DNA of 64,000 bases. It comes from Allacma fusca. Its lineage: Eukaryota; Arthropoda; Collembola; Symphypleona; Sminthuridae. The stretch is taken from positions 46,721,450-46,785,449 of the forward strand of contig OX359250.1 of NCBI GenBank assembly GCA_947179485.1, written 5' to 3'. The translations under genes were made by a program, and so were the position numbers. Shown here piece after piece: positions 48,801-64,000 of the stretch; position 1 is the first letter of the stretch; the number at the start of each line of letters is the position of its first letter. The notes beneath the pieces were generated by a model. That model worked only from the letters and a program-made list of their open reading frames with translations, searched no databases and had not been told where the DNA came from.

Positions 48801-50994
48801 CAGTGTTTCATGGACTGCGACCTTTTGTTTAGTTGTAAGATGATAAGATCAGTTACATCCAGAATGTTGAGTCGAGTTGGTGGAATTGTCATGACAAGAC
48901 TGTATACATTACTACTACCCGTTGTTTTGCCTGAGTTGACTGATTTCTCTAGAAACGAGTATAATTTATTGGTTACCGGAATGGAGCTGAGGGTGGAATG
49001 CATTTCAAGTAATGTGCATATTATACATGATTTAGATTATTTTATCTGGTGTCTTGCTTGAAGTTATTTCTATAAAAAAAAAAAAGAAAGAAAAGGTATG
49101 GGTACTAATTACCCGACACAATCAGGTTTGGTAGAACATGATGAGTTATATTTTCCGAGACTATATAATTATTGGAACCAGATATCTTTGCAAGACAGTT
49201 TGGTATTAAATGGAGCGTACACATTGGATGTACCCCTGACATACATGATTAGATGTCCCTGTAGGGAAGATGTTAAGTGCATATATTGTTTGCCTATGTA
49301 TGTGTATAATGTTTCACATTGACAGTCCACTGGGATGGCCCAGGGGACGGAAATCAGCAGCCCAAGTCAGTTGACCGGTCAAAATCGGAGGATTCGGTGG
49401 GAACTCCGGAAAAGACCAAGACTGAGAGAGAAGAAGGGATGACAGAGACTGAGAGTCAGAGTTATTTGTACGATACGGGTATTAGTATGACCCTCACGAA
49501 GGATAAGGATCCCAATGTGGGCATGATGAGTGACACGGAAGGAGAGGTCTCAGACTTCAGTCTCACCTCACCCAAGAAGGACTCAACTCGTTTAATGAGC
49601 TCACGCTCCGTGGATGACATCTCAGGAGCGGATGATCTCCTCCGAACTGGGGATGAGAGCTTTGAGGAATCCACGTACGTTATTCCAAGTCCACCAGAGT
49701 CAAGTATCACAATCACTGCGGATGAGCCACGAATTGAAATTGAGTTAGATTTAGAACATATAATAACGGAGAGTGTCCCTGGAGCCGTTCCTATTCTAGT
49801 TGACAAAGCTTCCAGTCCCGTGGCTGTGGGAACTCCAGAAAGACCCGACTCTATATCAAGATCTCAGCAGATCTCGTTCGAAGCGGTGGATGTGGGAGTG
49901 GGGACGAGCCCGAAAGAGTACGCCTGTAAGGATGTCCTCACCCAGCTCCATGATATTGTCACTGTTCCTATGAAGGATGAAGAGATTTACAAGACGCTCA
50001 AGGAGGATCAAGAAGCAAGACTGAGCATTGAAACAGACAGTAAGACTACTCAAGCGACCAAAGTTGCTCGCTCTACAGTGATTGATGTGCCCGAACCGAA
50101 AGATAAACCGTCCGATAGAAGTCCTCCGAGCGTCACAAAAACAACGAGAGTGAGTGAGAGAGAGAGGATCCGATCCTCCTCCATGGACGACAATGATGAT
50201 GACATGCAGTTTGACTTGAGCATTGAGGATGAACCTTCTGCATTGGGGATCCCCACTTTTGGAATTACCGGTGTAGCGGATGTAGGGAAGCAGGCAGATG
50301 ATGCTGTTTTCCGCATTTCCGCCGCCGCCGCCGCCGCCGCAGCATCTTCCAGTACGGATGAAATTAAATCAAGAAGTAAGGTCCCAGTCATAACCCATCA
50401 TCAAGGGCAGGAGAAAGCTACACGAGCAGCGCAAGTACCTGAAACGGAATTAACTGGAATTAGTGAAGGGTCCCTTAAGAAGGATCCGGTGATATTGTCA
50501 AAGACTGAATCGGAGGAAACCGAAACGGTTGTTACTCATAAATATGATCAACAAGAAAGACCTGCAAAAGATACACCTTCCGCACCTGTGATACCGCAAG
50601 GTGCTACCTCTCCGCCAAATAAATCCAAACTTGAAGAAGAAGAACAGGGTCAAGGTAGTGATGACTTCTGGGACTTCTCTGATCTCAAAACCGAAGAGAA
50701 ACCACAAGTAAAATCCCAAATTGCCACTATCATTGAATCCCCTGACTCTGAAAAGAAGGATTTAATTCCAGAGAAGCCCTTTAGGATAAAGAAACACTCA
50801 GACGGGAAGGTTGAGCCTTCTGTAGTCTGCACAAGCACTAAGTTTAAGGTCGAAACAGTTCGAGAAATTGTCGTTGAGTCCTCCTCTCATGAGTCACAAC
50901 AGACCTCAGAGGAGGCGGAGAAAAAGATTTTTCAAATCACACAACTTGAGAGTACAGCGACTACTACCACTGCCGTTGAATCGGCAGCAGCAGC

Positions 50995-51028
<34 letters not shown>

Positions 51029-54000
51029 TCCTCTCTCGACCATGTTGACACGCTCACTTCCGAACCTACAAGTAGAGCGGATGCATTTTTACAGATTGAA
51101 AGACAGGACGTGTCCCCGGATGCATCCAGTGATGAAAAATCCGAAGAGACTGTTAAGTCTGCTGAGCTAATTGATGGACCTCAAGTTGAGTCCACGACCA
51201 CTTCCTCCCTCACTCATCTGGACAGGCAACTAACAGCCAAAGAAAGAGTCACGGACTTAGAGGAATTGGTCGAGCTTAAGTCATCCCCGTCACCACAAGT
51301 CCCATTGGACGAATTTACACTTACGGCTGACCAGAAGAGGGATAGGCAAGGAAGCCTTGAGTCTGAAGGAGTCATTGAATTTATTCCAGATCAAGAGAGA
51401 CAATCTTCTGAAAAATCGGTCATAGAATCTAAAACAAGTGATAAAATCACTGTAGCTAGTCAAGTTCACACGGACACAAAAGAAAAGTCAGCTGGTGAAA
51501 AACCAGGGGATGTAGCTGATGGTACAGGCGTTGACACAAAGTACGCTGCTCCAAGTGGAACGGCTACTACGGTAGTATCCTCAATAAAATCAAAGGAACA
51601 ACTAGATACTGTAAAAACCATTGGAAGTACTGTAGAAAGTCTTATTGAAAAAGTTGAAGACTCACAGCACATTACAATACATGAGTTGGTCTCGGTTAAA
51701 GAAATTGCACATCCAGGAAAAGCAAAGGATGATGCGCCTGCAAAGGTGACAAGAGAAACAACAGAAGATGAAAACAAAGCCTTGGTTGAAGATAAATCAG
51801 AAAAGGTTGTAACTTTGGAATTCGGAAAAATAGAATCGGATGGAAGTGGAAAGTCGGCTGCACAATTACCAGCAAATGTTACTCAAAAGGATATTTCAGT
51901 GACACAGGTTGATGAAAGCATGGGAGGAAAGCATGCGAAAGAAATCAAAATTCTCGGAATTGATGCCAAGAAACCCACACAACTTGCGGATGCAAAACCG
52001 GAGTCTATAATGAGCGTTGACTCAGCAATGCTTAGAGAAAGCAAAGAAACTCCGGAGCTACTAACTGGAGACACTACTGTTAAGCAGTCTGCTTTCGTCA
52101 AAGTTGAAACTACTTTGGTTAAAGAAACCACCGATTTAAGAACAAAGCAGGAATTCTTACCGGAACCCTTGCTGGTTACTGACCATGAGAAAATAGTGAC
52201 ATCTTTACCTGAACAGGTGCCACCGTCAGACGGGGAAGCTTCAGTGACTCAGTCGGATAACTTTATTCAAAGTGTTTCTGAAAAGGAAGTCCGCTTCGGG
52301 AGTTCTGAGTCTCAAAGGGAGCATTCAAAGACCCCTGATATTGAGCTATCTGAAGAGTCTAAACTCCATGCTTTTCAACAAACCTACCAGGCAACGATTG
52401 TGAAAGAAAAACTTGAGGAGACAGAAAAAATGTTCCAAAGTGTGATGGAAAGTTTGGATGTAGCAAAAAAAACTTCATTTGAACATCCCGTCGAGGAAAC
52501 AGTAGAAACGCAGAGTCTTTTAAAATCACCTGTAGATATTTCATCACAATTTGAACTAGATGAACATTTTAGTATCCTCCCACAGCCTTCACCGATCTCT
52601 AAAAATGAAGACCAATCAAGAGAAGAGTTTGGGGAATTTATCCCTACTGCAGTATTTGGTGGTCCTCTTGCATCAGCCGCAATGGAATTACAAGAGAAAG
52701 TATTTTACAAGCATTTAGATCTCCAGGCCGAGCTTGCTGCTAAAGAAATTACTCCAATGTCATTTGAAGAAGATGAAGCTTCTAAAATTCTGTCAGCCCT
52801 GGAAGAGTCTTCTGAATTAACCTCACAAACATCAACCACTGGGGATATCCAATTCATCGCCAGAAAACCTATTCAAGTAGAACAGTTGTCACCTTTGGAA
52901 CAAGCCTTAAGGGGCGGGGAAGCCATCCTGGAATCTATAACAACAGAGAAACCCCTCGCTACTACAATACTTCCTCTTAGGCCAAAATCACTTGAGGAGT
53001 CAGTCTCTCAGCCTTTTGAGTCTACTCTCTCGGAATTTCCTGTCGGTCCTTCAAGAGCACCTGAGAAGGTAGCTCCCGTGCTGGAAAAATTAACAGAAAC
53101 TGAATTAGAAATTGCTAGAAAATCTCCTCAGCAAGTTCAAAAAGAGTCAGACATAAATGTTTCAGTAGATACATTTACAGAGAGCAGCGGAAAAGATATT
53201 CCTAAAGCCTCACAGGAATTTTCCCCAAGTCATCCATTCAAGTCAGCATTGCCTTTTGAAACTACAGCTGAGGATGATGGTCTAAGGAAGGAAACATTGA
53301 CAGGGGCTAAAATGGTTCCTTCCATCATTCCCACTCATGAAAATATTCAATTAGCAGAAAAGGTTGATACATCTTTGAAGGATGTTTCTAAAGTTGTTTC
53401 TACGGCACAAGTCCAAGTGGAAACAGAATATTCGGAAAAACAATTATTCAAAGCGAGAGTAGATAAAGATTTACAACATATGGAATTAGAATCTGTGAGG
53501 GATGTTTTGTCCGGAGACATTACTGGAGCAAAGGGATTAGCAACTGAAAAGACTGAGATTTTGGGGAAGACGACACAGCCCGAGCCATTATTACAGGTCA
53601 CATCTTTACTGGAGTGTACAACTTCGCTCCTGGAAGAATCTGAATCTGGAGACACATTCAAATTACTGGAGACGACAACACAGTCGGATGAAACTGTGCA
53701 TGTAAAGAAGGTAGGGGGGCTCTCAAAACACATGGAGAAGCACTTCATGCCTGACGTGAAAGGGAAGACTGAGGAGGAAAGGGTTCAACAAAGGGTACAG
53801 GAAAAAGTGGAACATCTTGAGCCCTTGGCAGCTGAAATAGTCACTACTATCGAAAATGTCTCAAAATCAAAACTTGATTCCCTGAGAAGTGAACACGGGG
53901 AAAAGAAAGAATCTCAGACCATTGACACTAAAGAAGGAGTAAAAAGTGGTGAAGACGTTTTGAAGGATGTTCAGTCCCTTAGTAGACAAGCTTTCCAAAA

Positions 54001-57000
54001 ATCACAGGAGATAATTTTGGATCCTAAAATGTTGGGTGAACAAACCAAACGGATTGATTCCAAAGCTTCGGCAGAAATAATGGCAAAAGAAGAGAGTCGT
54101 AGCAGGACAAGCGATTTTAAATCCAAAGGAATTGAGGAAGTTAAAGGAGCAGTGGGATACATTCCAGATGCAGTTAGCGGTTTCAAGTCGGTGGGAGAGA
54201 TTAAAACCGACAAGATTTTCAAGGAAAGCGCAGAAACGATGACAGTCGAAGAAATTAAGACGACTTCAAAACCTAAAACAATTTCAACGGAAATAGTTAC
54301 CAAATCCGCAGATTCGGTAACAAAAATGATTTCCGACTTGTCTGAAACTATCAAAACGTCTGAGCAAGTTGTTACAGACAAAGTAAAAATTTCAAAGGAG
54401 ACTTTTGAAGACATCCCTAAATTGGGGTACACTCCAGAGGCAGTTAGCGGTTTCATGTCGGTGGGAGAGGTTAAAACCGACAAGATTTTCAAGGAAAGCG
54501 CAGAAACGATGACAGTCGAAGAAATTAAGACGATCTCAAAACCTGAAACAATTTCAACGGAAATAGTTACCAAATCCGAAGATTCGGTGACAAAAATTAT
54601 TTCCGACTTGTCTGAAACTATCAAAACGTCTGAGCAAGTTGTTACAGACAAAGTAAAAATTTCGAAGGAGACCTTCGAGGACATCCCTAAAACAATTGAT
54701 GCTGGTCTTCTTAGTAAGGTCACAAGTGACTCCGGAAAGACTGAGTCTAGTTTCATAACCAAAAAGTCAGAAAAATATTTGATGGAAACTACGGAATTAT
54801 CGTCAAAAGAAGAGCTGGACAGTCGAATAAAAACAGAGAAACACTCATCAGAAACTGTGAGAGCAATTTCTGAAATACTTCCAACAGCGTCCTCCAAAGT
54901 GGAGAAGGCCGTTTTGGAAGTTGAATCGGATAAGGACATAGCACTGTCAGTTGAGAAGGGAATAATTGATACCACGTCAAAAGTAGATACGATTCTTAAA
55001 AAGGATACTTCAGTAATCAAAATCCCAGATAGTACAGGGTATTCTCACACCGAAATCTTAACAGAGAAGTCTGCTCAACTTGCAACTGAGAAAATTGCAT
55101 CTATCTCAACAGAATTGGGTCGTGTAACTGAAAAATCTGAGAAAGTCTTCTCACAGGAAATAGAAAAACGGGTTGATGAGTCTGTCAAATCTGAAATACA
55201 ATTATCTGAAGCAAAAGCGGAAAGCAAGAAAGAATCCACTAAAATTGCTGAAATATCTACAAAACAAGAATTAATATTTGACAAAATGGACAAATCTAAA
55301 CCGACTGAAGAAGAAATGGAGGAAATAGAAGCTCTTAACCGGCTCATAGCCAGGAAAATTAGACTACCTGGAAGTAGTGCCATTGAAACATTCCAGCAGA
55401 AATTGGAGACAACAGAAACAACTTCTGTGACATCTGAATTGTTGGAGAAATCTAGAGAGACAACTGACATGGACCCAACAGCGACTCTGATACAGCAACT
55501 TACTAAAAAAGACGAGGAGGCCAAAATTGATAAAGCAGCTAGAAAAACACCTGGAATTTTCGAGAAACTAGAATCGGAGAAGGACATGATTATGAAGGAG
55601 TCACAGGAAATACTTACTTCTAAAATTGAATCATCCTCAGAGCAACTTTCTGCATCAAAGGAAAAGGTTGTGAAGGCTGTGGAAGAGAAAGTAAAAATTC
55701 GAAAAGATAGTTTAACCTCAACTACTTCCAACTTAGAGGCCCTATTAGGTGAATCCAAGAAAATTGACATTGGGGTAGAAAAATCAAAGGAAAAAATACA
55801 AGTGTCAACAGTAATAGAAGAACCCAGAGGAGATGTAAAGCCAATGGTCTCCAGGGTGGATGATTTGCTATCCAAACATATTGAATCTGCTCAGGGAGCT
55901 ATGAAACTTGCTACAGAGGAACTTAAAACACAGTTTGAATCAGAACAACAAATCGTCACAGAAACCTCAAAAATATCTGCTAGTATGACAGAAAAAATCG
56001 AAAAAATGACAGCACCTGAGCGTACGCATGGAGCGCTGACCACGGATCCGAAAAAGGATGCTAAGGTGGAATTTGAATCTATTGACGTTGAGAGTAAATC
56101 CGTGAGAGCAGCAGCGGTAGTTGCTACTAAGCCCGACGAATCACCTGAGATTTTGGGGAAAAGTGTGGACAAATCTGGAAACCTACAGGAGTCTTTCGAA
56201 TCACTCAAAATGAGTGCAAGAGAATCAGCAACAAAAATAACGGAAATTGCTGGAGCTGCTGCTCTAGGGGTTGGTCTATTACTCTCATCACTTAGACCGG
56301 AAGAAATTGAGACAAAGACATCTGAAAAGCCATCTCAAGAACAATTTATTTCCGGCGAAATGGATTTTCAAAACGTTGTAAAAACAGAAATCTCAACTTC
56401 TGACATGAGTCTACTAAAATCTGGCAAAGAAATTCAAGCGTCAACCGACATTGTGACAACAGAAAAAATAGATAAAACTTTGCTTGTTTCCTTCGACCTG
56501 CCCCAGGCAGATGTCACGGCATTGACAGAATTGAAAACTCCCGAATCCACGGAAGGAATAAGCGTCTCCAAGTCTATTGTGACGAAAGTCGCTGAATTAC
56601 CAACTTCGGATCTCAAGTCAGCATTTGACCTGCCTCAGACAGATTTGACGAAATTGGTTGAATTGCCAACTCCCGATTCCACAGAAGCAGCCAGCCTGAC
56701 CAAGTCAGTTGCCATGAAAGTCGTGGAATTGCCAGTTTCGGATGTCAATAAATCAATTGACCTGCCCGAGGCAGATGTGACGACAATGGCAGAATTACAA
56801 GCCATCGAATCCACAGAAGGAATAAGCCTGTCCAAGACAGATGTGATCCAAGTCGTTGATTTACCAGCTAAGGATTCTACAGACTCCGCAGTCGACATAC
56901 TACAGGCAGATCTGACGAAATTGGTTGAAGCGTCAACTCCCGACTCCATCCAAGCAGTCGACCTGACCATAGCAGAAGTGTCAAAGGTCGTTGAAGTACC

Positions 57001-60000
57001 AACTTCGGATGCCACTCTATCAGTAGACCAGCACAAGACAGATGTGTCGAAGGTCGTCGAATTAACAATTTCGGATGCCCTACAATCAATTGACCTTCCC
57101 AAGGAAGATGTGGTGAAAGTCGCTGTATTATCAGAAGCAGATTCTACTCAAGTACCCAGCATACCCCCGGCAGATCTGATCAAATTGGTTGAACTACCAG
57201 CTCAGGATTCCAAGCAAGAAGTCGGCCTGCCCAAGGCAGATGGGATACACGTCGTAGAATTACTAACTTTGGATGACACACAATCAGTTGACGTGCTGAC
57301 GGGAGATGATGGAGTCCAGGCTTTACCAATTTCGGATTTAACCAAAGCATTCGACCTACATGACGCAGACATAACACCAAGCGATTCCAAGGCAGCATTC
57401 GACCTGCCCAAGTCAGATGTGACGAAAGACGTTGAATTACCAATTTTGGATTCCACAAAAGTACTTGACCTGCCCAAAGCAGACACGACGAAAGTCGTTG
57501 AATTACTGATTTCGGATACACGAGAAATCGACCTGCACAAGGCAGATGTAACTTCAAAGGTCGAAATATCAACTTCGGATTCCAAGGCCGCAGTCGACCT
57601 GTCCAAGTCAGATGTGACGAAAGAAGTTGAAGTGTCAATTGTGGATTCCACAGAAGCGATCCGCCTTCACAAGGGAGATGCGGAGAAATTTGTAGAATTA
57701 ACAGCTTCCGATTCCAAGCAATTAGTCGACATATCACAAGTTGTGACAAAAGCCGTTCAAATATCAACTTCGGATTCTACGGCATCAGTCGACCTTTCTA
57801 AGGAAGATGTGACAAAAGTCACAGATACATTGAAAACCATTGAATTGCCAACTTCGGATTCAAAACAAGCAATCGACTTGCACAAGTCAGATGCAACGAC
57901 AGTTATTGAATTACCAACATCGGAATCCAAACAAGCACTTGACCCGACGCAGACAGATACGACGAAAGCCCTCGAATTACCGGCTACAGATCCTACGCTC
58001 GCAGTCGACATATCTCAGGCAGATCTGACGAAATTGGCTGAATCACTAACTCACGATTCCATGGAAGCAGTCGTCATTCCCAAGGCAGATGTGACGAAAG
58101 TCGTTGAGTTACCAACTTCGGATGCCACACAAGCAATCGACCTGCTCGTCGCTGACGTAACACCAAGAGACGAAATATTAACTTCGGATTCCACGGCAAC
58201 AGTCGACCTATCCAAGTCAGATGTGACGAAAGTCGTTGAATTACCAACGTCGGAGATCACACAGTCAGTTGACCTGACAAAGGCAGATGTGGTGAAAGTC
58301 GCTGTATTATCAGCAGCAGATTCTACTCAAGTAGCCGGCCTACCCCCGGCAGATCTGACCAAATTGGTTGAACTACCAACTTCGGAGATCACACAATCCG
58401 TTGACCTACATAAGACACATGTGGAGAAAGTCGTTGAATTACCAACTTCAGATTCCAAGCAAGCAGTTGACCTGCCCAAAGTAGACACGACAAAAGTCGT
58501 TGAATTGGAAATTTTGGATGACACTCAATCAGTTGACCTGCCCAAGGCAGATAAGGCGAAGGTCGTTGAATTACCAATTTCAAAATCCAAAGAAGCAGTT
58601 GACCTACCCCAGACAGACACGACGAAAGTTGTTGAATTACCAACGTCCGAGATCACACAATCAGTTGACCTGGCCAAGGCTGAAGTAACGAAAGTCGTTG
58701 AATTACCTACTTCGGATTCCAAACATGTAGTTGACCTGCCCAAAGCAGACACGATAAAAGTCGCTGAATTACCAGTTTCGGATGCCACTCAATCAGTTGA
58801 CCTGCCCAAGGCAGATGTGACGAAGGTCGTTGAATTACCAATTTCAAAATCCAAAGAAGCAGTTGACCTACCCCAGACAGACACGACGAAAGTTGTTGAA
58901 TTACCAACGTCGGAGATCACACAACCAGTTGATCTGCCCAAAGCAGACACCATAAAAGTCGTTGAATTGGAAATTTCGGGCGACACTCAATTAGTTGACC
59001 TGCCCAAGGCAGATGCGACGAAAGTTGCCGAATTACCAACTTCGGATTCCAAGCAAGAAGTTGACCTGCCCAAGGCTGATGTATCGAAAGTCATTGACTT
59101 ACCAACTTCAGATTCCAAACAGGCAGTTGACCTGCCCAAACCAGACACCACAAAATTCGTTGAATTACCAGTTTCGGATGTCACTCAATCAGCTGACCTG
59201 CCCAAGGCAGATGAGACAAAGGTCCTTGAGTTACCAACTTCGGATTCCAAACAAGCAATCGACGTGCACAAGGCAGATGCGACGAAAGTCGTTGAATTAC
59301 CAGTATCAGAATTCACACAAGTAGTAGATATTACTAAGGGAGACACGACAAAAGTTGAGTATCCTATTTCGGATTACCCACAAGCAGATGACCTAGTTCT
59401 GCCAGTTGCGACTAAAGTCGTGGAATTGCCAATTTCGGGTTCCACACAAATAATCGACCTCTCTCAAATAGATACAACAAAAACCATTGAATTGCCAGCT
59501 TCAGATTCCAAACAAGCAATCGACTTGCACAAGCCAGATGCGACGAAAGTTGTTGAACTACCAACATCGGAATCCAAACAATCAGTTGACCTGCCCAAGA
59601 CAGATGTGATGAAAGCCGTTGACTTAACAACTTCAGATTCCACGCAAGTAGTCGACATACCACAAGAAGTTGTGACAAAATTTGTTGAATTGCCAACTCG
59701 CGAATCTACTCTAGCAGCCGGCCTGCCCGAGGAAGATGTGACGAATCTCGTTGAAATAACATCTTCGGATACTATACAAGCAGCTGACCGGCCCAGCCTA
59801 GACATGACAAAAGTCGTCGAAGTATCAACTTCGGGTTCGACAGAAGCAGTTGACCTGTCCAAGGCAGATGTGGCCACAAGGGATGACTTACCAATTGCGG
59901 ATTCCACGTACTCAGAAACTACTGAAGTTGAGACTGCCAAGGATTACAAAGTGCAGGTTGTTGACAAACGTGAATTTTCGACACTGGAGGAAAGCAAAAC

Positions 60001-63000
60001 AGTTGATACTGTGGTGTCATCTGACAAGCAAATAAAAGTACTTTCGGATGATAATATTTTTGATGAAGTATCTGAAACGGTTGTGAAATCCATTGAAGCT
60101 GGTAGCGTACACTCAGAAAGGGAAGGGGGAAAGTCAGGAGAAACAGTACGAATTCGGAAAGAAGGACGACCGAAACCAACTTTCCTGTTCTCAGAACCAT
60201 CCGAAGAGTTGGATTTGGATGAGGAAATTGCAGTGACAGCTGCTACTGAATTTAAGGATCTGACTGACAAGGACACTACAGAAAAAGAACCTCCAGTGGA
60301 AATGGTATTGACTTCTACGGATGATCAAGTGTTGGACAAAGTTGAGAACCAACAATCCGAGAAAATACAAGAAAAGGAAATTGGGAAATTTCAGAAGTCA
60401 GAAACTACGGATGTTTCTTCAGAAGAGACTTCCACGACAACCCTGATTATGACTGGAACGATGCCTGAACCTGCGGCTGACATACCTGCTCATGAAACTC
60501 TGCCAGAAATATCAGAGATTAAAACAATAATGGGTAAATCAGAAATACAAACTGCGATATCAAAGCCAAAAATGGAACAAGAGCTTGCCAAAGCTTCGAG
60601 CTCAGAACAAACAGATGTTGCTGGAACATCAGCTCCTGTGTTTGTGGAAGCTGTAATTCCTGATTCCACTGATCAAATTTCTCTCACCGCATCTTCTGAG
60701 AAGGTGGTGGCCGAGGTCTCCAAATTACATTTGACCGAAGATATTATGAAATCAGGTGACAAGGAAATTGCGGACCAATTAATCTCAGGGGAAACTATTT
60801 TATCTACTGAAATTACGGGAATATCTTTGCACAAGGCTGAAACTGTTAGGCCTGCTGAAGTCTCTGCAGTTTTGGAAGAAAGTTTACAGAAACAAATCGA
60901 TTTAGAATTCTCACCATCAGCACCATGTCAAGAACAGGCAACCTCTTCAGAATCCTTAGACAATTTGCTATCATTGACATGTGAATCTCCTTTGGAACAA
61001 ATTCTTAATTTGGAATCTTCGTTGCCTTCTGCGTCAGGGTCATCTGCAAAAAGCAGTTCAGGAGGGGAGATGGTGGTAACTTCTCAATTTACACATGAAA
61101 AATCAATGGAATCTGAAGTTGAAAAAACACAAAAAACTGAACTTGCTACGTCGGAAGAAGAAATAATTTCGCTTGCATTTTCAGCAGCAAGTATGCCATT
61201 TACACAAGACGGAGCAGAGTCAGCTGAATCTTTTAAACCTGTAGAGACAATATCCGGACGATCAGAAATTGCGGAGGAATCTATTCCGCCAACTGTTTAT
61301 CGATCAGAATTTGTAAAAGAACTCGAGGTTGTAGTAGAAACAAAGCATGGAGTTGGAATGTCGGAATTGGAGAAATTTACACAAGAAAGTGTTTCTACCA
61401 CAGCAAAACATGCTGCTGATTCCGAGGTTTTGGGACCTTCACCTGACCTAGAAAAACTGAAGGAAGTAATGAAAGACAGTGCAGATACTTCTTATCGTGC
61501 AGTAGAATCGGTCTTGAAATCCGAGACAAGAACGGCGACTAAAGAGATTTCCGAAAAATTTGAAACTTCCTTTGATTTATTACAATCGGGGAAAGTTACT
61601 GGAGAAAGTACTGCCATATCTGAAACATTTACTGAGAAAAAATCTACAAAATACGATACTAAACTGGAGACACCGGAGGAAATACAGGAATCAATGACTT
61701 CAACTATTTTGCCTATAATCGATAGAGAAGCTCCTTGTGTCCCCATTTCCGAAAAATCCGCAGTAGAAGCAAATATTTCAAAACCAAAAGTAAAAATACC
61801 TGAAGAACCTAAAGAGCAATCGACCACCTCAACGAAACAGCCAGACCAAGAAGAGGTAGCTCAAAAAGGTAACGTTCCTTCCGAAAAAGATGTACATGAA
61901 TTTGAGCAACTGGAGACAATTATTGAGACTAAAGAACTTCAAAAGCATCTCCAAACTGACCTGTCGCAACTGGAGAAAGTAAAGGCAGAAGTATGTACAG
62001 CTTCGGAGGCTAGCGTTGAAAAAATAGATTCGAAATTGGATGGCCAAACTCTTCCTCATACTCTGGAAGATACCTCGAAAACCTTACAATCCGAGACAAC
62101 AATTACCAGAGAAATTGAAACTCTTGCGAAGGAAGAATTGGTAGGGAAAGTGGAGAAAGCTCAAGTAGGAGAACAGAGAGAGGAAAAAGTAATGGTTACA
62201 AGCTCTACAGGTGACGATGAAGATTTGGATGAATTTCGAGAACTGGAGTCATTAATTTTCACTTCTGCCTCGAGACTCGATGAGCGTGGAATCATGGAGC
62301 AGAGTCTTCCCCCTGAATTCTTTGATGTAGAATCTGAAATATCGGATAAACGAGCTGCTTCGATTCCGGGAAGCTCTCAGCAAGGGCCTCTTCAACTACA
62401 ACCCGAAGTAAAAATAACCATGTCTACAAAATCCGAGACTGTAGTATCCCATGAGGAAATAATTCAGCCTGCGAAGCTCATCACAAAAACCGAATACTCT
62501 TGTTTTGATCAGACGAAGCGTGAGAAAGCAATTGATGACCGTCCTCTAGAACAAGTGGTTTGCTCCCTTGAAGAAGATATAATAGCTTTCACAGAAGCTT
62601 CAAAAACCGACGCTGTCAATACCAAAGGGAAGAAGGGAGAAAGAATAGAAAGTGAGATTGAGGCAACAGTACATTCCGCAGCCGCTTGGGTTACGGTCGA
62701 CAAAGACATTTTCCCAGACATTCCAGAAAAACCTGTTTGTCTTACAGGAGAAGAGAAAGCGGAGGCTTTGTCTAAAATCCTTGATACAATTGACAGTGAC
62801 GCCACAGTGTCAGAGAAAAAGTCTGTGGGAAAGGATGCAGATGAGGATACGAAAGGTGTGGAGGAACTTTTCATAGTCCCCGTTGTTTTGGATGCAAAGA
62901 CACCGGAAGACGTCCGTAAGTCGTACGAATGTAAGCACGTGGATGAGAAGGAGGAAAAGTTAACGGCTTTGGAAGAAAAGGCTATTGAAATAGAACGAGA

Positions 63001-64000
63001 GCTGCAAAAACTTATTGCGAATACAGCTGACACCACTGAAAAGACATATGCCAACTTTGCTGACATTCACGGACTGACCACAAAAGACTCTGAGGAAGAA
63101 GTTGCGGGTTTCGAGGATTGGGAAGAGCGAAAGGAGACGGATGACTCCATTACATCCAAGTCCACAGACTTACGCACTAGTGAGGGAGATTCATTTGACT
63201 TCACCGACAGTAATGACAAAACCAGGGAGGAATCAGTTTATAAGTTGAGCGAGGGGGAAATAGTAGTTCCCACAAAAACTCTAGAGCAAGAGGAAAAATT
63301 TGAGTCTCAGATCTTAAAAACTCAGGAAACAACTAGCAAAGATATAGTAAAGCCGGAAGATTTGCCTTGGGCCGCTGAAACGGTTGCAGAGCGTGAAGTA
63401 AAGTCACCCGTTGAAGGTGAATCCCGGATTCCAGTGCCTGTGCGGGGTAAAGTTAAGTCCCCTGAAAAATCTCCATACCGGGAGATTGTTCGGAGTTCGA
63501 GAAAATCTGAATCACCGGAATCACTCGCCACAGAAAAGATATTATCGGAGTCCCAGTCTGGTAAAATGTCTCCAAAAACCGGGAAAGGATATTCAAAAAT
63601 AAAATCTGAGAAAAAGGAAGTGGAGTCTGGGTCTGGGATGACATCACCAGAACATAAGGACAAATCCAAGAGCCCAGAACCTTTCAAACTAGAATCTAAA
63701 ATACCAGTCCCAATTAGAGGTGAACCTAAGTCACCAGAGCAAAGGAGATCGAAGACCTCATCACCAACTTCCCCAAAAGCGAAACCTCTGTCCTTCCCAG
63801 AGTGTCTCTCCCCAAAAGAGTCTTCTGAGCTTAGTTCTCCAGGAACACCCAAATCTGAATCGAAAATTCCTGTTCCGATTCGCTCCGAGACAAAGTCACC
63901 CCAATTAGGAAGATCAGGTGGGCGTACACCACAGACTCCCAGCCCAACTATGAAGCGGACATTTGCCTTGGAGCAATCTGGATATTCCCGCTCGAAATCC
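4457..64000 (+). CDS. Ank2: Giant ankyrin gene (Ank2-like), 32 visible exons, open at both ends
   Basis: Adaptor protein that couples membrane proteins to the spectrin-actin skeleton; giant isoforms of the family also organise axonal microtubules. Thirty-two exons with GT-AG borders and matching phases join into one frame of 19,440 nt (6,480 codons). Domain order is 24 ankyrin repeats (exons 1-21), acidic linker, ZU5-1 (exons 23-24), ZU5-2 (24-26), UPA (26-29), death domain (29-30), Ser-rich tail (31) and a giant tail (32). This is the full metazoan ankyrin order. The start methionine lies left of 4457 and the stop lies beyond 64000. Ank2 rather than Ank1 is chosen because the giant tail exon is a feature of Drosophila Ank2; in some arthropods a single gene may serve both roles. 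Family assignment is certain; the paralog name is inference. Confidence 0.97.
4914..4951 (+). CDS. Ank2: Ankyrin exon 2: first half of repeat 3
   Basis: 38 nt, acceptor TTTTCAG, donor GTAAGT, phase 2 in and phase 1 out. It encodes [12 protein letters not shown], the first helix of repeat 3. With exon 3 it sums to 99 nt, one ankyrin repeat, so the pair looks like a single repeat module interrupted by an intron. Confidence 0.93.
4952..5686. other. Intron 2 (735 nt)
   Basis: AT-rich intron. The open stretch at 5319-5633 inside it has no recognisable similarity and no splice borders that fit the flanking phases. Confidence 0.85.
5687..5747 (+). CDS. Ank2: Ankyrin exon 3: second half of repeat 3
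   Basis: 61 nt, acceptor GTGTAG, donor GTAAGT, phase 1 in and phase 2 out. It encodes [20 protein letters not shown], completing repeat 3 in register with the ALHIAAL of exon 2. Confidence 0.94.
5748..7185. other. Intron 3 (1,438 nt)
   Basis: AT-rich, no supported feature. A 122-codon open stretch at 6006-6374 ends in a stop and shows no family similarity. Confidence 0.85.
7186..7288 (+). CDS. Ank2: Ankyrin exon 4: repeat 4
   Basis: 103 nt, acceptor TTTCAG, donor GTAAGA, phase 2 in, phase 0 out. It encodes [20 protein letters not shown] and then [13 protein letters not shown]. The usual TPLYMAA has Cys instead of Leu here. The block QENHDGVVR and NQSLATE are hallmarks of ankyrin repeat 4. 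Confidence 0.95.
7375..7758 (+). CDS. Ank2: Ankyrin exon 5: repeats 5-8
   Basis: 384 nt, phase 0 at both ends, acceptor CGTAG, donor GTGAGT. It carries four repeats without an intron, starting [20 protein letters not shown], then the diagnostic [20 protein letters not shown] of repeat 6, [12 protein letters not shown] (7) and [20 protein letters not shown] (8). It is the longest exon of the repeat domain and suggests loss of the introns between these modules. Confidence 0.97.
7759..8673. other. Intron 5 (915 nt)
   Basis: AT-rich intron with no supported feature. Confidence 0.85.
8674..8772 (+). CDS. Ank2: Ankyrin exon 6: repeat 9
   Basis: 99 nt, exactly one repeat, phase 0 at both ends, acceptor TTTCAG, donor GTAAGT. 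It encodes [20 protein letters not shown] and then [13 protein letters not shown]. The next two residues expected in all ankyrins, Asn-Gly, are not in this exon or in exon 8 and are supplied by the 4-nt micro-exon. Confidence 0.95.
9017..9020 (+). CDS. Ank2: Ankyrin exon 7: 4-nt micro-exon (Asn + first base of Gly)
   Basis: The four bases AATG sit between a good acceptor (pyrimidine-rich stretch ending TTTAACAG) and a good donor (GTAAGC). They supply AAT (Asn) and the first G of GGC (Gly), giving the invariant NG at the start of repeat 10. Joining exon 6 (phase 0) directly to exon 8 would shift the frame and reach a stop within seven codons. Length 4 plus 91 for exon 8 equals 95, the length and phase pattern of exon 12. 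Confidence 0.85.
9145..9235 (+). CDS. Ank2: Ankyrin exon 8: repeat 10
   Basis: 91 nt, acceptor TTTCAG, donor GTAAGA, phase 1 in, phase 2 out. It encodes [20 protein letters not shown] and then [10 protein letters not shown], the typical repeat 10 of ankyrins. It needs two bases to complete a Gly codon begun in exon 7. Confidence 0.95.
9431..9628 (+). CDS. Ank2: Ankyrin exon 9: repeats 11-12
   Basis: 198 nt, two repeats, acceptor GTTTTAG, donor GTAAGT, phase 2 in and out. It encodes [20 protein letters not shown] and then [20 protein letters not shown] followed by [15 protein letters not shown], nearly invariant in the family. Confidence 0.97.
9772..9870 (+). CDS. Ank2: Ankyrin exon 10: repeat 13
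   Basis: 99 nt, phase 2 in and out, donor GTAAGT. It encodes [20 protein letters not shown] then [13 protein letters not shown]. The acceptor is odd: ten A residues run straight into the AG, with the T-rich tract further upstream. The frame and the conserved SFMGCMNI block leave no doubt about the exon. Confidence 0.95.
9960..10062 (+). CDS. Ank2: Ankyrin exon 11: repeat 14
   Basis: 103 nt, acceptor ACGCAG, donor GTAAGT, phase 2 in, phase 0 out. It encodes [20 protein letters not shown] then [14 protein letters not shown], the usual repeat 14. Confidence 0.96.
10063..11152. other. Intron 11 (1,090 nt)
   Basis: AT-rich intron with no supported feature. Confidence 0.85.
11153..11247 (+). CDS. 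Ank2: Ankyrin exon 12: repeat 15
   Basis: 95 nt, acceptor AAACAG, donor GTAAGT, phase 0 in, phase 2 out. It encodes [20 protein letters not shown] then [12 protein letters not shown]. Same length and phases as exons 7+8 combined. Confidence 0.96.
11248..11657. other. Intron 12 (410 nt)
   Basis: AT-rich intron, nothing further seen. Confidence 0.85.
11658..11709 (+). CDS. Ank2: Ankyrin exon 13: first half of repeat 16
   Basis: 52 nt, acceptor ATTTCAG, donor GTAAAG, phase 2 in, phase 0 out. It encodes [17 protein letters not shown]. The second half lies 3.75 kb downstream in exon 14. Confidence 0.93.
13217..13236. repeat. (TC)10 microsatellite
   Basis: Perfect TC tract inside intron 13. Confidence 0.93.
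15003..15030. repeat. (AG)14 microsatellite
   Basis: Perfect AG tract near the 3' end of intron 13. Confidence 0.95.
15462..15514 (+). CDS. Ank2: Ankyrin exon 14: second half of repeat 16
   Basis: 53 nt, acceptor TTCTAG, donor GTACAC (weaker than its neighbours), phase 0 in, phase 2 out. It encodes [17 protein letters not shown] and completes repeat 16 started in exon 13. Confidence 0.92.
15650..15845 (+). CDS. Ank2: Ankyrin exon 15: repeats 17-18
   Basis: 196 nt, acceptor TTAACAG, donor GTAAAC, phase 2 in, phase 0 out. It encodes [20 protein letters not shown] (17) and [20 protein letters not shown] (18), ending in DADPKCAAK. Confidence 0.96.
15846..16686. other. Intron 15 (841 nt)
   Basis: AT-rich intron with a slightly more GC-rich patch near 16130-16260; nothing identifiable in it. 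Confidence 0.85.
16687..16789 (+). CDS. Ank2: Ankyrin exon 16: repeat 19
   Basis: 103 nt, acceptor TTGTAG, donor GTAACG, phase 0 in, phase 1 out. It encodes [20 protein letters not shown] then [14 protein letters not shown]. The usual Asn-Gly at the repeat start is Asn-Leu here. Confidence 0.95.
16885..16979 (+). CDS. Ank2: Ankyrin exon 17: repeat 20
   Basis: 95 nt, acceptor TATCAG, donor GTATTA, phase 1 in, phase 0 out. It encodes [20 protein letters not shown] then [11 protein letters not shown]. Confidence 0.95.
17181..17278 (+). CDS. Ank2: Ankyrin exon 18: repeat 21
   Basis: 98 nt, acceptor TTTCAG, donor GTAAGT, phase 0 in, phase 2 out. It encodes [20 protein letters not shown] then [17 protein letters not shown] is RPLH here. 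Confidence 0.95.
17408..17514 (+). CDS. Ank2: Ankyrin exon 19: repeat 22
   Basis: 107 nt, acceptor CAACAG, donor GTAAGT, phase 2 in, phase 1 out. It encodes [20 protein letters not shown] then [15 protein letters not shown]. The HVASHFGQA block is conserved in all ankyrins. Confidence 0.96.
17747..17841 (+). CDS. Ank2: Ankyrin exon 20: repeat 23
   Basis: 95 nt, acceptor TATTAG, donor GTGAGT, phase 1 in, phase 0 out. It encodes [20 protein letters not shown] then [12 protein letters not shown]. Confidence 0.96.
17986..18292 (+). CDS. Ank2: Ankyrin exon 21: repeat 24 and acidic linker
   Basis: 307 nt, acceptor TTCTAG, donor GTAAAA, phase 0 in, phase 1 out. It encodes [20 protein letters not shown] (last repeat), a poly-Thr stretch, then [26 protein letters not shown] and [20 protein letters not shown], the standard linker between ankyrin repeats and the spectrin-binding module. 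The donor is the weakest clear one in this half. Reading through it adds a short Gly/Phe tail and stops at 18330, so retention of this intron would truncate the protein. Confidence 0.95.
18397..18487 (+). CDS. Ank2: Ankyrin exon 22: linker before ZU5
   Basis: 91 nt, acceptor TTTGCAG, donor GTAAGT, phase 1 in, phase 2 out. It encodes [20 protein letters not shown] then [10 protein letters not shown]. The last GG bases plus the first T of exon 23 make Gly, giving [13 protein letters not shown], the usual junction into ZU5. Confidence 0.9.
18488..21661. other. Intron 22 (3,174 nt)
   Basis: AT-rich intron. It contains one possible 63-nt cassette exon at 19297-19359 and a Gly-rich open stretch at 20216-20413 that lacks fitting splice borders. 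A tRNA-like B-box word near 18869 has no A box. Confidence 0.8.
19297..19359 (+). CDS. Ank2: Possible alternative cassette exon before ZU5
   Basis: A pyrimidine-rich acceptor (CCCCCACAGCCAG) precedes a stretch reading [20 protein letters not shown]. Used from 19297 to 19359 it is 63 nt and phase 2/2, so it could be spliced between exons 22 and 23 without a frameshift. An Arg codon directly upstream of Tyr gives an RYS start recalling the RYSW segment at the same place in vertebrate ankyrins. Against it: the donor is GTGTCG, which is poor, and the upstream AG at 19292 would give a frame that stops. Confidence 0.28.
21662..22047 (+). CDS. Ank2: Ankyrin exon 23: ZU5-1 domain
   Basis: 386 nt, acceptor CTTGTAG, donor GTAAGG, phase 2 in, phase 1 out. 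It encodes [60 protein letters not shown] and [13 protein letters not shown]. These are the core strands of the first ZU5 domain, part of the spectrin-binding ZU5-ZU5-UPA module. The acceptor has a weak pyrimidine tract. Confidence 0.97.
22156..22367 (+). CDS. Ank2: Ankyrin exon 24: end of ZU5-1, start of ZU5-2
   Basis: 212 nt, acceptor TTTCAG, donor GTAAGC, phase 1 in, phase 0 out. It encodes [20 protein letters not shown] (end of ZU5-1) and [20 protein letters not shown] with [10 protein letters not shown] (start of ZU5-2), all near-invariant in ankyrins. Confidence 0.97.
22816..22846. repeat. (TTAA)n microsatellite
   Basis: About 7.7 copies of the self-complementary tetranucleotide TTAA in intron 24. 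Confidence 0.93.
27860..27909. repeat. (TTA)n microsatellite, one interruption
   Basis: About 16 trinucleotide units with a single TCA interruption near 27891. Confidence 0.92.
28228..28249. repeat. (CT)11 microsatellite
   Basis: Perfect CT tract in intron 24. Confidence 0.93.
28555..28596. repeat. Imperfect AT repeat
   Basis: Alternating AT run with TAATTA interruptions, largely self-complementary, in intron 24. Confidence 0.8.
29553..29574 (-). other. Potential G-quadruplex (minus strand)
   Basis: Four C runs of 5, 3, 5 and 6 separated by single bases on the + strand. The minus strand therefore carries four G runs with one-base loops, the classical G4 pattern. It sits about 130 nt before exon 25. 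Confidence 0.6.
29704..29881 (+). CDS. Ank2: Ankyrin exon 25: ZU5-2 domain
   Basis: 178 nt, acceptor TCCATAG, donor GTAAGA, phase 0 in, phase 1 out. It encodes [40 protein letters not shown] and LRLLCSIT. The loop between TIPVP and LRLLCSIT is shorter than in insect ankyrins as I recall them. The exon is isolated between two introns of 7.3 and 9.3 kb. Confidence 0.97.
34121..34143. repeat. (TAA)n microsatellite
   Basis: About 7.5 TAA units in intron 25. Confidence 0.9.
35010..35036 (-). other. Potential G-quadruplex (minus strand)
   Basis: Five C runs (5, 3, 3, 4, 3) with loops of one to four bases on the + strand in intron 25, so a G4-type pattern on the minus strand. Confidence 0.5.
36890..37275. 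mobile_element. Candidate fold-back/MITE-like element
   Basis: An 18-base end sequence at 36890-36907 is repeated as its inverse complement at 37258-37275 with one mismatch. The interior is less AT-rich than its surroundings and has no coding capacity. A related end sequence (16 of 18 matches) occurs at 35720-35737. No clear target-site duplication is seen, so the assignment is tentative. Confidence 0.3.
39164..39356 (+). CDS. Ank2: Ankyrin exon 26: end of ZU5-2, start of UPA
   Basis: 193 nt, acceptor TCACAG, donor GTATGC, phase 1 in, phase 2 out. It encodes [40 protein letters not shown] and [17 protein letters not shown]. The first two close ZU5-2; the last is the linker into the UPA domain. 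Confidence 0.97.
39357..39928. other. Intron 26 (572 nt)
   Basis: AT-rich intron with a ten-base C run near 39846; nothing further seen. Confidence 0.85.
39929..40020 (+). CDS. Ank2: Ankyrin exon 27: UPA domain
   Basis: 92 nt, acceptor ACTCAG, donor GTATGT, phase 2 in, phase 1 out. It encodes [20 protein letters not shown] then [10 protein letters not shown], a conserved UPA segment. Confidence 0.96.
40021..40350. other. Intron 27 (330 nt)
   Basis: AT-rich intron, nothing further seen. Confidence 0.85.
40351..40577 (+). CDS. Ank2: Ankyrin exon 28: UPA domain
   Basis: 227 nt, acceptor TTTTTAG, donor GTACAG, phase 1 in, phase 0 out. It encodes [20 protein letters not shown], then [20 protein letters not shown] and [10 protein letters not shown]. 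The [10 protein letters not shown] and KSGEQL blocks are UPA signatures. Confidence 0.97.
40578..40997. other. Intron 28 (420 nt)
   Basis: AT-rich intron. The 175-codon minus-strand open frame that starts in exon 29 and runs through it (40774-41301) is a shadow. Confidence 0.85.
40998..41339 (+). CDS. Ank2: Ankyrin exon 29: end of UPA and first half of death domain
   Basis: 342 nt, phase 0 at both ends, acceptor GTTACAG, donor GTTAGT. It begins [18 protein letters not shown], the close of UPA, followed by a Ser/Pro-rich spacer. The death domain starts at [20 protein letters not shown] and runs through [20 protein letters not shown], about residues 1390-1433 counted from 4457. Confidence 0.96.
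41459..41740 (+). CDS. Ank2: Ankyrin exon 30: second half of death domain
   Basis: 282 nt, phase 0 at both ends, acceptor TGTATAG, donor GTTTGT. It encodes [20 protein letters not shown] and [18 protein letters not shown], helices 4-6 of the death domain, then a charged stretch ending [11 protein letters not shown] second in-phase donor (GTGAGT) lies 30 nt upstream at 41711 and looks stronger than the one chosen. The longer form is preferred because I recall the extra segment as conserved in other arthropod ankyrins. Confidence 0.93.
42042..42225 (+). CDS. Ank2: Ankyrin exon 31: Ser-rich regulatory tail
   Basis: 184 nt, acceptor TCCACAG, donor GTAAGC, phase 0 in, phase 1 out. It encodes [37 protein letters not shown] and [18 protein letters not shown]. 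It is the last small exon before the giant tail. Reading through its donor continues in frame to a stop at 42377, so a short isoform by intron retention is possible. Confidence 0.9.
42226..49325. other. Intron 31 (7,100 nt)
   Basis: Long AT-rich intron between the death-domain tail and the giant exon. It carries a CT tract (42898-42921). This is where exons for shorter isoforms could lie, but no candidate has convincing splice borders. Open stretches at 48810-49061 and 49098-49322 do not continue the ankyrin frame. Confidence 0.85.
42898..42921. repeat. (CT)12 microsatellite
   Basis: Perfect CT tract in intron 31. Confidence 0.93.
49326..64000 (+). CDS. Ank2: Ankyrin exon 32: giant tail exon, incomplete at right edge
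   Basis: At least 14,675 nt without a stop in the ankyrin frame (acceptor TTGACAG, phase 1 in). It encodes more than 4,890 residues rich in Ser, Thr, Glu, Lys and Val. Landmarks: [20 protein letters not shown] near the start; eight Ala at 50321-50344; Ala4-Thr11 at 50984-51028; a 270-bp tandem duplication at 54151-54690; a hydrophobic segment at 56246-56293; about 52 copies of a 22-residue repeat at 56492-59914; and three SxIP motifs at 63422, 63695 and 63860 in a basic Ser-Pro region. Giant tail exons are known from Drosophila Ank2-L/XL and vertebrate ANK2/ANK3 neuronal isoforms, where they act on microtubules. Neuronal expression here is inference. Confidence 0.95.
50321..50344 (+). repeat. 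Poly-Ala codon run in giant exon
   Basis: Six GCC then two GCA codons, eight alanines, in the ankyrin frame. Confidence 0.9.
50984..51028 (+). repeat. Ala4-Thr11 codon run in giant exon
   Basis: Four GCA then eleven ACA codons in the ankyrin frame. In another frame the same bases would read as poly-Gln. Confidence 0.9.
54151..54690 (+). repeat. 270-bp tandem duplication in giant exon
   Basis: Two adjacent copies offset by exactly 270 nt (90 codons): CAGTTAGCGG at 54171 and 54441, ACATCCCTAA at 54411 and 54681. Only scattered base differences separate them, so the duplication is recent and keeps the frame. Confidence 0.95.
56246..56293 (+). other. Isolated hydrophobic segment in giant tail
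   Basis: The ankyrin frame reads [16 protein letters not shown], sixteen residues with no charge, flanked by KITE upstream and RPEE downstream. It is the only such stretch I saw in an otherwise strongly polar tail. Confidence 0.8.
56492..59914 (+). repeat. About 52 copies of a 66-bp (22-aa) coding repeat
   Basis: 3,423 nt, 1,141 residues. Each unit is two related 11-residue halves, typically [11 protein letters not shown] followed by [11 protein letters not shown], that is V-D/E-L-P-x-x-D in both. A few units are shortened (for example near 57290-57400) or carry an extra residue. Units in the middle and late part (about 58380-59330) are the most alike, those at the edges the most degenerate, as expected from unequal exchange. 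Confidence 0.95.
58571..59098 (+). repeat. Higher-order 264-bp duplication within the array
   Basis: A block containing [20 protein letters not shown] occurs at 58571 and again at 58835, an offset of 264 nt, exactly four 66-bp units. The DNA copies are nearly identical over more than 100 nt, indicating a recent four-unit duplication. Confidence 0.85.
63422..63871 (+). other. Three SxIP motifs in a basic Ser/Pro-rich region
   Basis: The ankyrin frame reads [16 protein letters not shown] (63422), [16 protein letters not shown] (63695) and [15 protein letters not shown] (63860). SxIP with nearby basic and Ser/Pro residues is the known binding motif for the EB1 family of microtubule plus-end proteins, used also by the vertebrate 480-kDa ankyrin-G tail. 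Confidence 0.75.

Follow-up and report, generated by a model that had tools for sequence, protein, structure and literature searches.

What a tandem array of short repeats contributes to the tail of a giant ankyrin is the question raised by the window analysed here, a stretch of 64,000 nucleotides from contig OX359250.1 of the collembolan Allacma fusca. Giant ankyrins connect microtubules with the membrane skeleton, and those of flies contribute to setting axon diameter. Their long tails evolve very fast; therefore, cross-species sequence comparison reveals little of what matters in them. The 48 clean copies present within this one genome provide an internal comparison by which held columns of the repeat can be sorted from free ones, and the held columns convert the vague notion of a "spacer" into testable positions.

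The predicted domains follow the canonical ankyrin gene order on one strand, i.e., ankyrin repeats, ZU5, UPA, and death domain (Table 1), which bears out the assignment to an ankyrin gene made in the sequence-only reading. The Pfam search matched one of two ZU5 domains in the window, and two ORFs with ankyrin repeats were found among those scanned, 24 repeats being expected. The giant exon lies in the open frame 49310–67834 (about 18.5 kb, 6,175 codons), downstream of the death domain, whose match ends at 41572; an exon of >3 kb in this position characterizes protostome giant ankyrins, whereas the vertebrate giant exon precedes the death domain. Judging from the sequence, its acceptor AG ends at 49325 and its donor GT would start at 67821, past the end of the window, resulting in a length of about 18,495 nt. 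Ser and Glu make up 24.8% of the exon, and Ser, Glu, Thr, Asp, Lys and Pro together 56.1%; passages of PMC5135030 give about 25% and >55%, respectively, as the mark of ankyrin long exons. For the array alone, the values are 17.1% and 55.7%. TTAGG repeats, present at one of the five contig ends that were read, indicate an arthropod genome. The host gene appears to code for an arthropod, Ank2-like ankyrin, and by analogy with the giant ankyrins of fly, worm and mammal, the array-bearing protein is probably located in axons.

Table 1. Coordinates (window positions) of the repeat array and of the predicted parts of the ankyrin gene
Feature	Position	Strand	Basis or remark
ORF with ankyrin repeats	7375..7848	+	PF00023, 1.6e-28
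ORF with ankyrin repeats	15630..16001	+	PF00023, 3.5e-15
ZU5 domain	21669..21962	+	E 1.1e-30
UPA domain, part 1	39921..40022	+	E 4.3e-8
UPA domain, part 2	40353..40586	+	E 1.6e-25
Death domain, part 1	41220..41363	+	E 6.5e-5
Death domain, part 2	41462..41572	+	Pfam match
Giant exon, part within the window	49326..64000	+	ORF 49310-67834; splice sites read by eye
Tandem array of 22-residue (66-nt) unit	56492..59914	+	48 clean units and about 4 frayed; period spectrum, iterative profile, column permutation
Most homogeneous run	57872..59323	+	22 gapless units; 44-residue (132-nt) higher order

The array comprises 1,141 codons in the same frame as the giant ORF; its coordinates and its length had been given correctly from the sequence alone. 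An iterative profile run over the 6,175-codon frame yielded 50 matches, 48 of which are gapless units inside the array (lowest score 21.4). The two weak matches outside the array, scoring 8.7 and 9.3 as compared to a top score of 10.1 in 200 shuffles of the exon, were left out of the unit count. Five inserts of 1, 15, 21, 27 and 21 residues occur among the 48 units. Since the last four, as judged by eye, look like units with indels or a partial unit, the earlier count of 52 units is fair if taken as "about 52". The open frame is kept through all indels of the array.

The consensus of the unit consists of two related 11-residue halves, A and B. Identity of the translation to itself is 0.244 at a lag of 11 residues (z 18.7), 0.400 at a lag of 22 (z 35.3) and 0.405 at a lag of 44 (z 38.8, each against 500 shuffles); the proposed 11-residue sub-period thus stands well above shuffled sequences. 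Compared in register, the halves show a mean column overlap of 0.247 vs 0.081 ± 0.035, a value reached by 1 of 20,000 column permutations. Their agreement at codon positions 1 and 2 is 0.469 and 0.583, respectively (0.261 and 0.288 at other shifts), and is barely raised at position 3 (0.269; other shifts, 0.239). By codon-position agreement, DNA duplication as the source of the halves is indistinguishable from selection. The array is uneven, with identities to the consensus of 56% for units 1–18, 70% for units 19–40, and 61% for the last eight. Within the most homogeneous run, units at even spacing are more alike, to an extent reached in none of 500 order shuffles at the protein level and in 5 of 500 at the DNA level. 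The two closest pairs of units, which are near-identical and 88 residues apart, also lie in this run.

Comparison of the copies column by column indicated that the acid columns (2, 7, 13 and 18), the Leu columns L3/L14 and the Lys column K10 are held, with pN/pS ratios of 0.43, 0.42 and 0.42, respectively, in contrast to the freely varying columns of Pro, Ser/Thr and Ala. The ratio is 1.57 for the Pro columns and 1.06 for the ten remaining columns. Ranked by low pN, the acid set is number 8 of 7,315 possible four-column sets. The weight that the sequence-only reading had placed on regularly spaced Pro gains no support, as columns 4 and 15 accumulate changes at the pace of silent sites (pN 0.397 vs 0.253 for silent sites in these columns and 0.413 for the pooled ones). 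The valine columns are not conserved as to the residue (V1, 1.00; V8, 1.34; V11, 1.12; V12, 0.77, as fractions of pooled pS), and columns 1, 3, 11, 12 and 14 are hydrophobic in 41 to 47 of the 48 units. The pN/pS ratio amounts to 0.81 for the full set of 48 units and to 1.05 for the first 12, so that a stretch of the array may evolve almost without constraint. Such a stretch would be expected if the array were evolutionary slack, generated by replication slippage and unequal crossing-over in a disordered tail, and tolerated without a function of its own. The presence of repeats in merely a subset of ankyrin long exons, and their lack of conservation over large distances, as stated in passages of PMC5135030, point in the same direction. 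Against slack stand the low ratios of the acid, Leu and Lys10 columns and a frame that has stayed open despite all indels, and we regard this explanation as unlikely.

AlphaFold2 did not return a confident fold for the array: mean pLDDT was 47.3 for a single-sequence model and 41.6 for a model based on eight aligned array segments, and no residue of either model reached 70. The single-sequence model contains short strands about every 11 residues over part of its length, whereas the eight-segment model is devoid of secondary structure. By charge-hydropathy, the array is placed among folded sequences (0.483 vs a boundary of 0.449); for the remainder of the exon, the corresponding values are 0.427 and 0.436. 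As the array also has a higher content of hydrophobic residues than that remainder, it cannot safely be taken as simply disordered. Besides, the periodicity of its hydrophobic residues has a sharp maximum at 131 degrees per residue, and a quasi 5.5-residue register (hydrophobic-acid-hydrophobic) beneath the 11-mer ranks 1 of 120 by residue class and 7 of 120 by identity. Charge-hydropathy, peak, register and strands would all suit an ordered repeat fold such as a β-solenoid with one 22-residue coil per unit; given a rise of 0.48 nm per coil, 52 coils would form a stiff rod of about 25 nm. We nevertheless consider such a fold quite improbable, in view of the low pLDDT of both models, the missing secondary structure of the second one, and the four longer inserts, which break the register. 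Foldseek, queried with the single-sequence model at a limit of E 10, gave 71 matches, the best at 0.19 and none at 0.001, and the Pfam listing up to E 10, from which weak matches may have been filtered, included neither a pentapeptide nor a leucine-rich-repeat family. A related and bolder idea, to which we give little credence, is that of an ordered or semi-ordered comb with an acid every 5.5 residues (2, 7, 13, 18) between hydrophobic positions, built by successive doubling from 5.5 to 11, 22 and 44 residues; it would act as a rod of defined length or as a polyvalent dock in arthropod axons, and would represent a fold or binding code that is not known from ankyrins.

Candidate families with short repeats were discarded. 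Apolipoproteins carry amphipathic 11/22-residue helices, but the hydrophobic moment of the array peaks at 131 degrees and not at 98–100 (1.19 vs 0.43), and 40 of the 48 units contain Pro. Leucine-rich repeats accounted for many of the best 50 of the 71 Foldseek matches, obtained with a low-confidence model (best E 0.19); the Pfam scan listed none. Pentapeptide-repeat proteins were rejected because the register is 5+6 instead of an unbroken five, and because the matches that Pfam listed for the array up to E 10 did not include this family.

A putative rod or spacer, as proposed in the sequence-only reading, is a reasonable interpretation of the array. On balance we favour, with a modest degree of confidence, the view that the array expanded in tandem within one lineage and serves as a spacer in the tail of the giant isoform of an arthropod (Ank2-like) ankyrin. 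It would most likely be flexible, acidic and multivalent, and would connect the ankyrin core, anchored to membrane and spectrin, with the microtubule side of axons. The chain would be mostly extended; its comb of evenly spaced acidic and hydrophobic residues may keep it soluble and stretched, and may offer many weak, equivalent contact points. As a multivalent bridge, it would have its reach and valency tuned by copy number, the exact sequence being of little importance. The spacer reading rests on the nested periods of 11, 22 and 44 residues in one giant frame after the death domain; the composition of the exon, the constraint on individual columns, the five columns mostly filled by hydrophobic residues, and the strong genome matches within or bordering the array, combined with the lack of a confident fold, were also counted in its favour. 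Against it count the folded-side charge-hydropathy value, the unheld valine columns, and the pN/pS ratios of the whole array and of the first 12 units.

The spacer reading has a precedent in Drosophila Ank2-XL, which according to passages of PMC5135030 contains an array of 93 repeats, each of 76 residues, for which a role as a molecular spacer has been postulated. As in this neuronal ankyrin, the present array lies in a long exon past the death domain of an arthropod ankyrin, here probably neuronal too; the unit of 22 residues sets the present array apart from the published description. The tail of C. elegans UNC-44 AO13, needed for neuronal development, is also highly repetitive, but consists of six Ser/Thr/Glu/Pro (STEP) blocks with seven hydrophobic stretches between them (excerpts of PMC7159925). 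Arrays of 5 to >160 repeats of 36–228 bp occur in some ankyrin long exons, arthropods included, and are recognizable between close species alone (Jegla 2016, passages of PMC5135030). Having about 52 copies of a 66-bp unit in such an exon, the present array therefore belongs to a known kind, which limits the novelty proposed for the 11+11 design to the unit itself: a published ankyrin repeat unit of this type was not found in open-access text among the matches listed. The new contribution is the per-column constraint.

Overlapping with the spacer reading is the possibility, which we rate as rather unlikely, that the repeats are themselves microtubule-binding modules, like the 15 imperfect 12-residue repeats of mammalian 440-kDa ankyrin-B (excerpt of PMC8610419). 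Ankyrin-B440 binds microtubules through these repeats (excerpts of PMC8610419 and PMC7876315), and in fly Ank2-XL, interaction with microtubules reportedly requires the repeat region (excerpt of PMC6703079). Like ankyrin-B440, the array is a short imperfect tandem repeat in a giant exon, and the six-residue spacing of Pro and Lys, as in P3/K9 of ankyrin-B, recurs in 21 of the 48 A-halves. The pattern P.....K is present 24 times in the array (6.3 ± 2.5 when shuffled) and P.S...K three times (0.6 ± 0.8), and the K10 column is constrained. In contrast to the 12-residue period and the conserved P3, S5 and K9 of ankyrin-B440, however, the periods are 11, 22 and 44, P-x-[ST]-x-x-x-K (P4 to K10) occurs in just 5 of the 48 A-halves, and the Pro columns are without constraint. 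Acidic residues outnumber basic ones in the array (218 D/E vs 105 K/R), which would be awkward for direct binding to the likewise acidic microtubule surface. Neither the EB-binding SxIP motif (no occurrence) nor the LC8-type TQT motif (one) is in excess in the array.

Searches for relatives with a profile of 13 three-unit blocks against sequences of solved structures gave two matches at E up to 1, in which no stretch was significant alone; the better one (E 0.015) is an engineered repeat protein. A 154-residue piece of the array produced 63 and 21 pattern matches in bacterial and viral contigs, respectively, none of which was confirmed. A 308-residue piece scored 27.3 bits against DUF7152 (cut-off 27), no stretch being significant alone, and the whole array 21.4 bits; we regard this score as an artefact of the repetitive sequence. 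For the same piece, several further Pfam families had E <0.01, all below their own cut-offs. In the genome of A. fusca itself, a 176-residue piece retrieved at least 21 matches with a limit of E 10. At least nine, with E 4.4e-19 or better, fall within the array or on its border, and at least 12 lie outside, the best at 4.4e-4 and the others at 0.036 or worse. The best outside match is a 33-nt repeat tract, one frame of which reads as a hydrophobic 11-mer; as this 11-mer is unrelated to that of the array, the tract was rejected as a relative.

A tandem repeat at 56492–59914 (1,141 codons, forward strand) lies in the frame of a giant ankyrin, with nested periods and an evenly spaced grid of acidic residues and leucines that is under constraint. 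The surrounding open frame (49310–67834) comprises 6,175 codons, and an acceptor-like AG ending at 49325 together with a donor-like GT from 67821, both picked by eye from the sequence, puts the predicted exon length at about 18,495 nt. Its composition agrees with that published for ankyrin long exons (PMC5135030). UPA_2 matches reported genome-wide numbered two, and both are the UPA pieces listed below. At a second locus, on contig C8 (17497369–17500670), ZU5 is matched in part and a death domain is matched too, with no UPA_2 match; this locus is perhaps an UNC5 relative. The contig that carries the window has 596 copies of TTAGG, the usual arthropod telomere repeat, in 3,001 bases at its right end; no telomere array was found at the other four of the five contig ends read. 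An arthropod source is therefore likely but not certain.

Ankyrin domains upstream of the giant exon
Feature	Position	Location
Ankyrin repeats	7375–7848, 15630–16001	same strand as giant exon, upstream of exon
ZU5	21669–21962	same strand as giant exon, upstream of exon
UPA	39921–40022, 40353–40586	same strand as giant exon, upstream of exon
Death domain	about 41220–41572	same strand as giant exon, upstream of exon

The sequence-only reading had proposed a 22-residue unit built from two 11-residue halves, and the 11-residue sub-period indeed exceeded chance: with 500 shuffled versions of the array as background, identity was 0.244 at lag 11 (z 18.7), 0.400 at lag 22 (z 35.3) and 0.405 at lag 44 (z 38.8), and among lags 1 to 79, z >4 occurred solely at multiples of 11 and at lag 65. 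A seed-unit profile converged on 50 matches, of which two weak ones outside the array were left out; the remaining 48 units are separated by five inserts of 1, 15, 21, 27 and 21 residues, four of them, by eye, units with indels or part of a unit. When the A and B halves are compared column by column in register, the mean chance of identity is 0.247 (column permutation, 0.081 ± 0.035), a value reached in 1 of 20,000 permutations. In the DNA, this likeness is carried by codon positions 1 and 2 and barely by 3, so that old duplication and shared selection are not separable. With the 11-residue likeness kept, a 5.5-residue register ranked 1 of 120 by residue class and 7 of 120 by identity, suggesting an additional register under the 11-mer.

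Within 57872–59323 (22 gapless units), even-spaced unit pairs are more alike than odd-spaced ones, to a degree reached by none of 500 order shuffles for protein and by 5 of 500 for DNA. In the two most similar pairs overall (97% and 95% DNA identity), the units are spaced 88 residues apart. Identity to the consensus is 70% in the middle and 56% and 61% at the ends; a uniform middle with worn ends is what unequal exchange usually leaves behind.

Across all pairwise comparisons of the 48 units, pooled pN/pS was 0.81, with 0.60 in 12 central units versus 1.05 in the first 12. When columns were grouped by consensus, the acid columns 2, 7, 13 and 18 gave 0.43 (rank 8 by low pN among 7,315 possible four-column sets) and ten other columns 1.06; L3 and L14 together, and K10 by itself, picked out post hoc from the profile, each gave 0.42. 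The three columns left over, V1, V11 and V12, reach 1.00, 1.12 and 0.77 of pooled pS, and the wider hydrophobic set (columns 1, 3, 11, 12 and 14) 0.64; hence valine itself is not conserved, although 41 to 47 of the 48 units have a hydrophobic residue at each of these five columns. The proline columns 4 and 15 drift (1.57, or about 0.96 with the pooled pS, 0.413, as denominator).

The AlphaFold2 model of 308 array residues alone (mean pLDDT 47.3) showed, along part of its length, weak strands at intervals of about 11 residues; the model of 88 residues, built from an alignment that included seven further segments of the array (41.6), had no secondary structure. In hydrophobicity, however, the array exceeds the remainder of the exon, and a charge-hydropathy plot places it on the folded side of the boundary. 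On balance, disorder is the likelier state, not a certain one.

Repeat arrays in giant ankyrins are a known class: the array of fly Ank2-XL comprises 93 repeats, each of 76 residues (Jegla et al. 2016, PMC5135030), its repeat region is reported to be required for interaction with microtubules (PMC6703079), axon diameter is described as being set by a grid-like complex of the giant Ank2 isoforms with Futsch (review, PMC6131297), and mammalian ankyrin-B440 binds microtubules via fifteen 12-residue repeats with P3, S5 and K9 (PMC8610419). The 11+11 unit differs in length from both, and no description of it was found among the open-access papers listed, which covered part of the larger result sets. 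That the array binds microtubules directly, as ankyrin-B440 does, is less likely because of its drifting proline columns and net acidic charge, although the fly precedent lends this reading some weight. More probably the array would act as a flexible, negatively charged, multivalent linker, its length set by copy number, bridging the membrane anchor and the microtubule side.

Upstream of the array, the same exon contains a directly duplicated 270-nt (90-residue) unit (54153–54691, 94% matching). Directly after the exon lies a 645-residue ORF (L007, 4434–6368, own numbering) that contains several motifs resembling LTDVEDL and has a hydrophobic segment at its end. It may represent one more exon of the ankyrin tail or a different gene; a genome search with most of it returned the self match only. 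A 626-residue ORF (L008, 1027–2904, own numbering) with a short EVPIV-like repeat run provides a second V/E/P-rich repeat near the ankyrin gene. The downstream ORF at 6814–9450 of L010 (own numbering), with about ten 126-nt repeats of TPR-like appearance (8161–9461) and a start that looks NB-ARC-like by eye, seems to belong to a separate gene. A 33-nt tandem tract on contig C8 (32037802–32038173, minus strand), one frame of which reads as a hydrophobic 11-mer, has the period of the array but a different sequence.
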